From the NCBI RefSeq assembly GCF_000243335.1, contig NZ_JH597773.1:3742115-3806114 (forward strand): a stretch of DNA of 64,000 nucleotides, given 5' to 3'. This document shows, in pieces, positions 1,258-18,274 of the stretch (position 1 is its first letter; every line of letters starts with the position of its first letter). The position numbers were made by a program, and so were the translations under genes. The stretch comes from Leptonema illini DSM 21528. Lineage in GTDB: Bacteria > Spirochaetota > Leptospiria > Leptospirales > Leptonemataceae. The notes beneath the pieces were generated by a model. That model did not search any database. It was not told where the DNA came from and saw only the letters and a list, made by a program, of their open reading frames with translations.

Positions 1258-1290
1258 TTAACCTCAGAGGTCGCGGAGGACGCAGAGAAA
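1258..1290 (+). repeat. Short repeat R, left flank of the GxxExxY gene
   Basis: Reads TTAACCTCAGAGGTCGCGG followed by AGGACGCAGAGAAA. A copy in the opposite orientation lies just 3' of the GxxExxY gene (1766-1790), and further copies fill 1835-2485. The repeats therefore bracket the gene as inverted ends. Seen directly by eye; no alignment was run. Confidence 0.75.
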
Positions 1291-1359
1291 AATACGAGTC
1301 GTTTGACCGGTGTTGAACCTATACCGGTTATGAGAGTAGAAAAATCCAAAAAGGATGGC

Positions 1360-1749
1360 ATGTGGATTGAGCCTGATCCAGAACTGACCGGTGTCGTTAT
1401 CGCTTCGGCAATAGAGGTGCATCGGTATTTTGGGCCCGGATTGCTTGAGAGTGTGTATGAGTCTGCCCTGTTTCTGGAGTTGCAACAAAGATCAATTCAT
1501 TCGAAAAGACAGGCACCCGTGCCGGCCCTTTACAAGGGGGTCGACCTGGGAACGGGCTTTCGTGCTGATTTGATCGTTGAGAACAGCCTTTTGCTGGAAA
1601 TCAAGACAGTTGACACGATTCATTCAGTACATCTGGCGCAGGCGTTGAGCTATATGAAAGCGTTGCGGTTCAGGCGCGGCCTGATTCTGAATTTCAATGC
1701 GCCACAACTCCGCCTGGGTATCAAACGAGTATCATTGGCTCCTTCATAA
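1360..1749 (+). CDS. GxxExxY family protein
   Basis: A 129-residue protein of the GxxExxY family (PD-(D/E)xK-like fold in PF13366). Motifs: GPGLLESVYESAL (the name-giving GxxExxY), a central ADLIVENSLLLEIKTVD that fits a D...ExK nuclease-type active site, and HLAQALSYMKALRFRRGLILNF near the end. The cellular role of the family is not established. The start at 1360 is chosen because AAGGA precedes it at a suitable distance; ATG 1330 and TTG 1303 are in frame but lack a ribosome-binding site. Inverted copies of a short repeat flank the gene, and a repeat array follows it. Confidence 0.8.
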   Translation: MWIEPDPELTGVVIASAIEVHRYFGPGLLESVYESALFLELQQRSIHSKRQAPVPALYKGVDLGTGFRADLIVENSLLLEIKTVDTIHSVHLAQALSYMKALRFRRGLILNFNAPQLRLGIKRVSLAPS

Positions 1750-1765
1750 CCCGGTCTATTAGAGT

Positions 1766-1790
1766 CTTCCTCTGCGACCTGTGTGGTTTA
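1766..1790 (-). repeat. Short repeat R, right flank of the GxxExxY gene
   Basis: On the minus strand it reads TAAACCACACAGGTCGCAGA then GGAAG, matching the repeat at 1258-1290 apart from a few bases and in inverted orientation. It starts about 15 bases after the GxxExxY stop codon. Confidence 0.7.
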
Positions 1791-1834: not shown

Positions 1835-2485
1835 ACCACGGAGGAAGGCAGAGAGAAGGGTAAGAGTTTTTTACCGCGAAATACACGAAAGGTGCGAAAG
1901 AAATCCAGGGCCCTTGATCCGTTTATCGATCGTATCTTCTCTCCGTGTCTCTGTGGTAGATTGTTCTGATTTTTTCGCAGCATCGCAGCAAAGAGGTTTA
2001 ACCGCGGAGGGCTCTGAGGGCGCGGAGGCAGAAGTGGAGTGGGGTAAGGCCTTTCAGCACGCGAGCGCTTCTCTATTCCGGATCGTTTTCGCGTATTTCG
2101 CGCTTTTCGCGGTCAAAAGGATTTTCTTACCGCTAAATACGCGAAAATCGCGAAAGAAGAGGGGAGAATCTAACGGTACCGATATTGAAAACCCTATCAC
2201 TTCTCCCGACTTTCCTTCTGGATTTCTCCGCGACCTCAGCGTCCTCTGTGGTGGATTGTTCAGATTTTTCTCGCAGCATCGCAGCAAAGAGGTTTAACCG
2301 CGGAGGGCTCGGAGGTAAGAGGTCGGTGAGATTTTCCAGTATAATCAGCCCTGTTATGTGATTTGTGCCTGATCGGATCGTTTTCGCGTATTTCGCGGTT
2401 CAGGGATTTTTCTGCTCTTTCTATATATGCAGCAAGCCAACAGAAGCGATGAGGCGCTATTCACACTGATCTCTCTCTGTGCTCT
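1835..2485. repeat. Array of two interleaved repeat families (R and S)
   Basis: This stretch has no convincing gene. It holds alternating, oppositely oriented copies of two short repeats. R (ACCACAGAG/CGCGGAGG type) occurs at about 1835-1858 (+), 1935-1960 (-), 1996-2032 (+), 2224-2256 (-), 2292-2320 (+), and as a split copy ending at 2485. S (ACCGCGAAATACGCGAAA type) occurs at about 1870-1900 (+), 2080-2118 (-), 2128-2160 (+) and 2375-2404 (-). Neighbouring copies face each other, so long hairpins could form in RNA or single-stranded DNA. Open frames here are made by the repeats and lack family similarity. Confidence 0.75.
1950..2398 (+). repeat. Imperfect direct duplication with a period of about 295 bp
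   Basis: The block from TCTGTGGTAGATTGTTC at 1950 to about 2019 recurs at 2245-2315, with GCAGCATCGCAGCAAAGAGG identical in both. The block GGATCGTTTTCGCGTATTTC at 2080 recurs at 2375. Both offsets are about 295 bases, so the array seems to have grown by duplication of a whole module, while the sequence between the matched blocks differs. Confidence 0.75.
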
Positions 2486-2530
2486 GTAGAGTAGAGAGGG
2501 TGCCGGAAATCCGGCAGCCCTCCCCCTCGT

Positions 2531-2565
2531 CAAACCGGACGTGCAGATTTCCCGCATCCGGCTTT
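2531..2565 (-). ncRNA. Group II intron domain V
   Basis: The minus strand shows AGCCGGATGCGGGAAATC, then TGCACGTCCGGTTT. This folds into the typical 34-nt domain V hairpin with the AGC catalytic triad at its base, a GNRA-like GGGAAA tip region and a two-base bulge on the 3' side. It lies between the reverse transcriptase stop and the 3' splice site, as expected. Domain VI is the following GC-rich stem (about 2490-2530). Confidence 0.8.
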
Positions 2566-2587
2566 CACGAATACCTGTTTCACTGCG

Positions 2588-3931
2588 TTAAGCATAGGAT
2601 AGGAATTGCAGCCCCTGTTTCCTCAAATAGGAATTCCAGGTGTCACCCTCCGGGAGCTTCGTCTTACGCTGGCTTTTCCTCGTGAGGAATTTCCAGAATT
2701 TCAGATGGAGATAGTAGTTTACTTCGCTGTAGGCTCTCTTGCGGTATCCCACTGCGAAGTAGTTATCCCATCCTCTGAGCGTGCGATTCAGCTCTGCGAT
2801 GGCCTGATCCACCGGTTTATAGGAGTTCCTGTAGGAGAGGAATTCGTGTATTTTCCCTTTTAGATTCTTGACGGATTTCTTTGACGGATAAACATTCAGG
2901 CATAGATAGTTCCTGTGATGGATTCCTTTTTCGTACCGGAAGGAGAAGCCGAGGAAATCAAGAATCGGGCCTGTCGTTCGCAGATCGACCCACCTTGTTT
3001 TCTCTCTGTTTATCGTCAGACGGAATCGTGTTTCAAGTAGATCCTCAAGATGATGGATCATCTCTTTCATCGGTTCCTTCATCAAGATCACGAAGTCATC
3101 CGCATAGCGTACAATGGATGCCTGAATCTTCCTGCTCGTAGTCATGGCATGGAAGTATTTCTCGAAGTGATGGAGGTAGATGTTGGCGAGAAGCGGCGAG
3201 ATGACGCCTCCCTGAGGCGTGCCTATCGTGCTTTTGTGCCATTTCTTCTTTCCATTCTCATCGACATCCACTATCGTCGCTTTCAACCACATACGAAGCA
3301 GCTTCAAAACGGATCGATCAACGATTCTTCTCTCGACTGCCTTCATGAGATTGTCATGCGGGATGGTATCGAAATAACCCTTCAGATCCGCGTCATAGAC
3401 AACACGCTTGCCTCCTTTCAGTTCAGACCGTATCGCTTCAACGGCATCATGTGCCGAACGACCCGGTCGGAAACCGTAAGAGGTGTCCAGAAAATCCGCC
3501 TCGAAGATCGGTTCGATGATCAGGAGGACGGCCATCTGGATAACGCGGTCTTTGATGGTGGGGATTCCAAGGGGTCTTTTCCGACCATCCTTCTTCGGAA
3601 TGTACACGCGTTTAACAGGGTCCGGACGATACGTTGATTCTTTCAGGCTGATTAACAGTCCCTCAAGAAATCCATCCACACCGTCTTTTCTCTTTTCAAT
3701 GTCCTCAAAGCTGATTCCGTCGATGCCCGGCGCACCCTTATTGGCCCTTACTCGTTTCCACGCAGATTCAAGGGTGTCCTTCCTGAGCACATGGCCGTAC
3801 AGCGAGTAGAATCGAAACTTTGCTTCCGCTTTTGCTTTGTGAAAGAGCTTCGTTCTCAAAAGAGAGAGGTCCGCAGAGAGTCCCCACTGGTTTAGCGGGC
3901 AGTAGTCTGCATTTTCCGTAGTAGTTTCCAA
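2588..3931 (-). CDS. ltrA: Group II intron reverse transcriptase/maturase
   Basis: A 447-residue intron-encoded protein that binds its intron RNA, helps it splice and copies it into DNA targets. Order of features: N-terminal RT0/RT1 region with ANKGAPGIDG (about residue 64), IPKKDGRKRPLGIPTIKDRV (RT2), SYGFRPGRSAHDAV (RT3), DADLKGYFDTIPHD (RT4), GTPQGGVISPLLANIYLH (RT5-6), catalytic YADD near residue 277, then a maturase (domain X) region with LNRTLRGWDNYF. No HNH endonuclease domain follows. The start is TTG at 3931 with AGGAG about 10 bases upstream. The frame looks intact, so the element may be active. Confidence 0.95.
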   Translation of the reverse strand: METTTENADYCPLNQWGLSADLSLLRTKLFHKAKAEAKFRFYSLYGHVLRKDTLESAWKRVRANKGAPGIDGISFEDIEKRKDGVDGFLEGLLISLKESTYRPDPVKRVYIPKKDGRKRPLGIPTIKDRVIQMAVLLIIEPIFEADFLDTSYGFRPGRSAHDAVEAIRSELKGGKRVVYDADLKGYFDTIPHDNLMKAVERRIVDRSVLKLLRMWLKATIVDVDENGKKKWHKSTIGTPQGGVISPLLANIYLHHFEKYFHAMTTSRKIQASIVRYADDFVILMKEPMKEMIHHLEDLLETRFRLTINREKTRWVDLRTTGPILDFLGFSFRYEKGIHHRNYLCLNVYPSKKSVKNLKGKIHEFLSYRNSYKPVDQAIAELNRTLRGWDNYFAVGYRKRAYSEVNYYLHLKFWKFLTRKSQRKTKLPEGDTWNSYLRKQGLQFLSYA

Positions 3932-4399
3932 TCGGTCTTTCTCCTCATCTGAATCAGCTTGTATTCGTCAAGCCTCCTTCGCTCCATCGGAGTTACCCGA
4001 CTTCGACGCTACTATGAAGCTCTCCGACTTCCCTTCCTGACCGCCCGACGGTTATTCATTCCCGCCGGACGTTTGCTGGCGCATCAGGAGGGATCTCCCA
4101 GGTTCCTCGCGTTCGCCTTACATGCGCGCTGTCCTCCAAGACCCCGGATAGCTCCGTGGCGGTGAGCGATTGTTGACCGCTCACGGATGGCAGGCTTCAC
4201 CATCACGGACAGGTTGGCCGCTATCAGTTGAGTAACGAGGCTGAATAGGTTCGCTTTCGCTACGGCTCGCATGTTCATTTCCCGTGGCTTCGGCCTTTCG
4301 GTTGCCCTATGACCGCACGGTTCCTTAACCGCCGAACAATCAATTAGCGGTCCAGGGACGTTTCACCCTGGTGGCTCACACAGGCTTATCCTGGCGCAC

Positions 4400-4416
4400 C
4401 CGCGATCTCTGTGGTT
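4400..4416 (-). repeat. 5'-exon half of the R repeat interrupted by the intron
   Basis: Minus-strand sequence AACCACAGAGATCGCGG ends exactly at the proposed intron start. Together with AGAGCACAGAGAGAGATC (2485 downward) it rebuilds a repeat of the type found at 1258-1290. Seen directly; identity as one split copy is an inference from the joined sequence. Confidence 0.65.
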
Positions 4417-4430
4417 GACCCTTTGACTTT

Positions 4431-17683: not shown

Positions 17684-18274
17684 ATGAGAACGGTTATCGT
17701 CTTCAATCACCCCTACGAGGGTAGCTACTGCAACGCCATCTTGAAGTCCGTCATGAACGGACTGCATAAAGCGGATCAGGACGTCGATCTGATACACCTC
17801 GATAACGACCGCTTCGACCCCGTTATGACGAAAGAAGATCTGAAGGCCTTTCTGGATCGAAAGCCCGTCGATCCGGTCGTGTTGAACTATACGGAGCGCC
17901 TGGCCAGGGCCGATCATCTTATCTTCATCTTCCCCATCTGGTGGGAGATGATGCCCGCATTGACGAAGGGCTTCATCGACAGGGTCATCTTTCCCGGCGT
18001 GGCCTTTGAATTCAAAGAAAAGGGACACGGCATGAATCCGCTTCTCAAGAACCTGAAGGGCGTCACCGTTATCACGACGATGAACACTCCGCGCCTTCTC
18101 TATCGCCTTCGCTACGGCAACGCAGTGAAAAAGGCGCTGTTGACCGGAACCTTCTTCAAGCTCGGCTACAGAAATCTGAAGTGGATTAACCTCAGCATGG
18201 TGAAGTCGGCTTCGGATAAAAAACGCAGGAAGTGGCTGAACGACATCGAAGCGAAATTCGCATCACCGAATTGA
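17684..18274 (+). CDS. Flavodoxin-fold NAD(P)H oxidoreductase
   Basis: A 196-residue protein of the NAD(P)H:quinone oxidoreductase/KefF-like flavodoxin fold. MRTVIVFNHPYEGSYCNAIL is the FMN phosphate-binding start, and RADHLIFIFPIWWEMMPALTKGFIDRVIFPGVAF is the signature strand-turn region with the Trp-Trp that packs on the flavin. Such enzymes reduce quinones or azo/nitro compounds with two electrons. The start is set by GGAGG at 17674-17678; an upstream in-frame start would cover the operator. It is probably controlled by the divergent MarR protein and followed by a DUF4405 membrane gene after 45 bases. Confidence 0.9.
   Translation: MRTVIVFNHPYEGSYCNAILKSVMNGLHKADQDVDLIHLDNDRFDPVMTKEDLKAFLDRKPVDPVVLNYTERLARADHLIFIFPIWWEMMPALTKGFIDRVIFPGVAFEFKEKGHGMNPLLKNLKGVTVITTMNTPRLLYRLRYGNAVKKALLTGTFFKLGYRNLKWINLSMVKSASDKKRRKWLNDIEAKFASPN

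Follow-up and report, generated by a model that had tools for sequence, protein, structure and literature searches.

A GxxExxY-family gene between inverted copies of a dispersed short repeat: a candidate one-gene mobile element

Introduction

Why does a gene of the GxxExxY family in Leptonema illini lie between inverted copies of a short repeat, and does the repeat belong with the protein? The locus is part of a 64,000-nucleotide stretch of the L. illini DSM 21528 genome, analysed here as a whole and called the window. An earlier note on this DNA had offered two options: a cassette moved by enzymes acting in trans, or a protein that acts on its own repeats. Family annotation of GxxExxY is limited to the motif. 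In the open-access literature GxxExxY is mentioned in just two papers, in passing in both, and the TIGR04256 model is unused; we found no link there between the family and repeats or mobility, and since subscription journals and preprints lay outside the search, an earlier description elsewhere is possible.

The cassette in the window

The left repeat, a copy of R of the GAG type at positions 1260–1287 (plus strand), reads AACCTCAGAGGTCGCGGAGGACGCAGAG, that is, AACC followed by three 9-nt units of roughly CRCNRARNN; it faces inward and forms the cassette's 5′ end. The GxxExxY gene occupies 1330–1749 on the plus strand; it starts at the ATG at 1330, within a frame that is open from a TTG at 1303, and its D, E-x-K and QxxxY residues are intact. 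The right repeat is inverted and lies at about 1768–1788, where the minus strand reads AACCACACAGGTCGCAGAGGA; it makes up the 3′ end of the cassette. Inverted copies of R thus do bracket the gene, as the earlier note had described, but not over the 25–33 bp given there: the matching arms are 21 bp long, with 18 positions identical, because the third unit of the right copy has decayed. The flank match score of the window gene is 13.5; shuffled flanks reach at most 10, and scores of at least 13 occur at 1.6% of control positions elsewhere. Taken alone, this match is suggestive. What places the bracketing beyond chance is that the same geometry is found at most GxxExxY genes elsewhere, and the position and orientation of the left R recur in most homologous loci.

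The GxxExxY protein

The protein encoded in the window is a clear member of the GxxExxY family, scoring 130.8 bits against TIGR04256 (cut-off 35) and 125.2 bits against PF13366 (PDDEXK_3; cut-off 22). The residues that are invariant in the alignment are the G, E and Y of the motif, followed by D, ExK and QxxxY. This order is the RecB/lambda-exonuclease/Cas4 pattern and, on sequence grounds, identifies the protein as a PD-(D/E)xK nuclease. In an AlphaFold2 model (pLDDT 89) the nearest structures, at moderate E-values, are lambda exonuclease (E=8e-4) and the Cas4 protein SSO0001 (E=8e-3), while a sequence-based homology search of solved structures with the protein returned no homologue. Active site and predicted fold are both of the lambda-exonuclease/RecB/Cas4 type. 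Although GxxExxY resembles lambda exonuclease, RecB and Cas4 in predicted fold and motif order, it differs from them in its length of about 115 residues, in having no helicase or partner gene and in being bracketed by repeats. Unlike Cas4, the window protein has no cysteine for an Fe-S cluster, and there is no CRISPR-type array at the locus; a CRISPR-like array was rejected as an account of the repeats, since the R copies alternate in orientation and no regularly spaced direct repeats are present.

Comparison of the resident gene between genomes G273 and G312 gave a dN of 0.046 and a dS of about 1.9, and this gene is under strong purifying selection. A role in anti-phage defence was considered and rejected, as PADLOC gave no match for GxxExxY. 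Likewise, we rejected phage or plasmid cargo because the gene is nearly absent from such records: it was found in 0 of 50,697 phage records, in 8 of 72,556 plasmid records and, in a scan with a single strict peptide pattern, in one of 2.9 million viral contigs. This viral copy is also flanked by repeats.

Inverted repeats at GxxExxY genes across phyla

How general is the arrangement? Of 296 Spirochaetota genomes, 62 have a GxxExxY match that exceeds the cut-off. For each gene we took the 250 bp on either side and scored their best inverted match without gaps; positions of the same locus at a distance of more than 2 kb served as controls. At 60 Spirochaetota loci, 58% of the genes have inverted flanks (score of at least 14), against 0.6% of 1200 control positions. 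Across a further 76 loci from about 20 phyla, including archaea, the figure is 66% of genes against 0.7% of 1420 controls, in a set that was collected with the GPGLLE pattern (the alignment being too diverse for a collection scan) and is accordingly biased to the GPGLLE clade. Clear inverted flanks are absent from roughly a third to 40% of GxxExxY genes. Direct flank matches are enriched as well in the Spirochaetota loci (42% versus 0.5%), and their source is tandem modules.

The enrichment that the earlier note had proposed to look for, of R at GxxExxY genes over background, is pronounced: in the 60 bp nearest the gene the density of GAG-type R is about 2 per kb, and at a distance of 4–10 kb it falls to 0.00–0.03 per kb. 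Within the same 60 bp the copies face inward: upstream of the gene they are forward (15:0), and downstream they are reverse (19:1); these statements on orientation come from the 60-locus, 76-locus and distance-profile analyses, in which loci were oriented by the gene. Nor do the flanks match by low complexity, which that note had named as a possible refutation, for the ends of one locus match each other best: 61% of end pairs from the same locus reach a score of 14, compared with 6.6% of pairs drawn from different GAG-type loci (p=2e-23). Ends that co-vary within a locus are as expected for the terminal repeats of one element. At L031/L059 the two ends agree at every position over 29 bp. Low complexity and chance are rejected both by the control positions within the loci and by a reversed-pattern control, in which the genome of the window contains 103 near-exact matches to GAG-type R and 1 match to the reversed pattern.

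Repeat type and protein clade

Repeat type follows protein clade, not genome. In the Spirochaetota set, on which the clade comparison rests because of the bias of the cross-phylum set, GAG-type flanks accompany 23 of 30 genes of the GLL clade (GPGLLES) versus 0 of 29 of the GF clade (G-x-G-F(L/Q)E; p=1.7e-10), and the GF-clade genes have GAT-type units at their flanks instead. The same pairing is seen among paralogues inside single genomes (G100, G176, G015 and G020), and the protein tree shows one switch of repeat type within Spirochaetota and two overall. This linkage would also follow if R and the gene simply travelled together.

Dispersed R accumulates in genomes that carry the gene: at least five GAG-type copies are present in 19 of 62 Spirochaetota genomes with GxxExxY versus 5 of 234 without it (odds ratio 20). 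Two draft genomes, G057 and G075, contain 32 and 17 GAG-type copies, and GxxExxY was not detected in them; gene loss, an assembly gap or gene-independent spread of R are possible reasons.

Mobility of R-gene-R′ cassettes and of gene-less R-R′ pairs

The R-gene-R′ cassettes and R-R′ pairs are mobile, discrete insertions with R at their edges. In genome G231 of the genus g72, a cassette lies exactly at the hisG/hisB junction, where the relatives G297, G272 and G344 have 0–36 bp, and this insert of ~500 bp has R at both its start and its end. In G273, G312, G313, G314 and G327 the same junction holds a GxxExxY gene of a different clade, with GAT-type R. Each of these five genomes contains 24–52 matches to a gene-less R-R′ element, while searches of 15 g72 congeners without the cognate gene returned flank matches only and no element. 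Both ends are present in 38 of the 40 copies that we fetched, mostly spaced by 117–120 nt; 37 of these 38 lie outside open frames, and the fetched copies contain no gene. Alignment with empty sites at hisH|hisF and four other junctions shows that R marks both borders of the R-R′ insert and that the edges are rich in A/T; no consistent or fixed-length target duplication was seen at the g72 sites compared. Most empty sites lack R (for example hisG|hisB in G297 and G344, and hisH|hisF in G314, G313 and G319), so R arrives together with the element.

The hisG|hisB and hisH|hisF junctions (L098, L066, L284 and L270) hold differing repeat types and clades in different species, and inserts at the his junctions of g72 often provide a stop codon and a GAGG ahead of the next start; g72 elements may have a target preference for gene junctions. 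A different short insert at hisG|hisB, with GGTTGAGCCTGTCGAAACC, was seen in G272 (C7, about 17920–17953; L228) and is probably another interspersed repeat.

Genome G131 contains five copies of a ~505-bp unit, 90–97% identical and on different contigs, as well as a sixth copy from which most of the gene has been deleted while both ends are kept, with ATATGACG on either side. The 9-bp flanks match exactly in L101 (AGTATGCAC), nearly so in L106, and exactly or nearly in most copies. Beyond R, the G131 copies have an additional outer terminal repeat, CTGACWTCTACCCACA. In this draft genome the outer ends occur only on GxxExxY elements, nowhere else and on no transposase gene, and no IS with such ends was found in the draft. 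The gene copies in G131 drift and collect stops. Broken GxxExxY copies with stops or truncations are numerous (G131: C5, C15, C34, C37 and C81; G285: C302), which suggests rapid turnover in the two genomes.

Discussion

What kind of entity is the block? On balance we think it probable that it is a one-gene mobile element with R at its ends and a GxxExxY nuclease gene between them, that the R-R′ pairs are its miniature derivatives and that the protein cuts or resects R. We propose that R, in two copies that face inward and consist of about three tandem 9–10-nt units each, makes up the ends of the element, and that the sole gene, GxxExxY, encodes a putative minimal PD-(D/E)xK nuclease of the lambda-exonuclease/RecB/Cas4 type. 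The gene-less R-R′ pairs would be miniature non-autonomous derivatives, found in REP/BIME-like mosaics. GxxExxY would recognise its cognate R and cut or resect there, so that nuclease activity might initiate movement, and the R-bounded DNA would then be copied or moved to AT-rich intergenic junctions, in the manner proposed for REPs and their RAYT transposases. GxxExxY is probably the mobilising nuclease. More tentatively, and with slightly less than even confidence, we suggest that GxxExxY takes the place of a transposase in a new class of mobile elements, where it would recognise the tandem-unit ends and spread its own half-kilobase element and the gene-less copies in bacterial and archaeal chromosomes. 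The findings narrow the two options of the earlier note to a mobile unit that ends in R.

The closest analogy is with REP/BIME sequences and their RAYTs. There the gene is always enclosed by a pair of inverted short repeats, further copies of which are scattered intergenically, mosaics alternate in orientation, repeat and protein families track each other, and the gene is mostly chromosomal and at low copy number; the RAYT itself belongs to the tyrosine transposases related to IS200/IS605, and REPs are imperfect palindromes headed by GTAG or GTGG (PMC2817692). Similarly, an inverted pair of short repeats encloses the GxxExxY gene and more copies of R occur elsewhere in the genome, R mosaics alternate in orientation, repeat and protein types track each other, and the GxxExxY gene is likewise mostly chromosomal and at low copy number. 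However, by profile, motif and predicted fold GxxExxY is a PD-(D/E)xK nuclease rather than a tyrosine transposase, and R, with three 9–10-nt units in tandem, is neither palindromic nor headed by GTAG or GTGG. The best reading of this comparison is of a REP/RAYT-like system assembled from unrelated parts, with R as the terminal repeat. The R-R′ pairs also resemble MITEs, which are moved in trans, in being short, gene-less and intergenic and in having terminal inverted repeats; as in MITEs and IS elements, these repeats coincide with the insertion edges, both in the empty-site alignments and at the boundaries of the G131 paralogues. As to target duplications, which in MITEs and IS elements have a fixed length, 9-bp matching flanks are found only in G131, and the g72 insertions show none of fixed length; nor did the G131 draft yield a transposase gene that bears the element's ends.

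The main rival explanation builds on that resemblance: R-gene-R′ and R-R′ would be MITE-like units moved in trans by a conventional transposase, for example of the DDE type, with GxxExxY as a passenger. We regard this as unlikely overall, yet in G131 it is favoured by the duplications. The outer terminal repeats and 9-bp matching flanks of that genome are of the DDE kind, 9-bp duplications with terminal repeats being typical of DDE transposition, and the G131 ends resemble the Tn5/IS50 end CTGACTCTTATACACA. Against a transposase in trans stand the restriction of these ends to GxxExxY elements, the confinement of the gene-less R-R′ copies of g72 to genomes with GxxExxY, and the need for one passenger gene to recur, together with its own repeat type, across about 20 phyla. 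A homing-type spread, in which GxxExxY would cut R or R-like sites already in place and recombination between repeats would copy the cassette in, seems to us distinctly improbable. It accords with the nuclease fold, with the nested R mosaics of the window's genome and with the GAT-type cassette of the G273 clade, which adjoins a GAG-type R remnant at hisG|hisB; but a homing endonuclease should find its recognition sequence intact at empty sites, and R is missing from most of these. Least probable of all, and very improbable in our judgement, is that R is a static regulatory or RNA-structure repeat and GxxExxY an RNA- or DNA-processing enzyme under hairpin control. Inverted pairs would indeed form hairpins, and the inserts between operon genes provide stop codons and ribosome-binding-like GAGG, but presence and absence among close relatives, near-identical multiple copies and an internally deleted copy are signs of mobility.

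A one-gene element with its own terminal repeats would give a testable function to a widespread family known by its motif only, and would account for a large group of interspersed repeats, the ACCACAGAGGACACAGAG-like ones and their relatives, in many phyla. It would also add to REP/RAYT a second, unrelated way in which chromosomes are populated. Should the nuclease be what moves the element, this would be a mobile element driven by an enzyme of the RecB/lambda-exonuclease type, for which we know of no precedent.

R copies beyond the cassette

More R copies follow the gene, as the earlier note had observed: between positions 1875 and 2400 R recurs as two subtypes, GAG and AAA, and the copies alternate in orientation. 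The AAA-type copies lie at 1875–1899 (plus strand; CGCGAAATACACGAAAGGTGCGAAA), 2087–2111 (minus), 2131–2155 (plus) and 2381–2399 (minus), the last being the partner of the copy at 2129–2147 (I2). Those of the GAG type are found at 1938–1957 (minus, partial; CTCCGTGTCTCTGTGGTAG), 2003–2027 (plus; CGCGGAGGGCTCTGAGGGCGCGGAG), 2226–2250 (minus; reverse complement CACAGAGGACGCTGAGGTCGCGGAG) and 2297–2315 (plus, partial; family D1). Mosaics such as AAA-minus, AAA-plus, GAG-minus, GAG-plus recur elsewhere in the same 4.5-Mb genome, whose second GxxExxY gene has AAA-type R modules nearby and no tight or direct bracketing. A pure tandem array of about 13 units of the 9-mer GTCGCAGAG (G000:C1:569801–569918; L201 1802–1919) adjoins R mosaics, and the R unit is thus itself capable of expansion. 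Finally, we note a group II intron on the minus strand of the window at 2486–4399, with an RF00029 match at 2486–2566 and a reverse transcriptase/maturase at 2588–3931; its edges read AACCACAGAGATCGCG on the 5′ side (about 4401–4419) and ACAGAGCACAGAGAGAG on the 3′ side (about 2462–2482), and it appears to have inserted within a copy of R.
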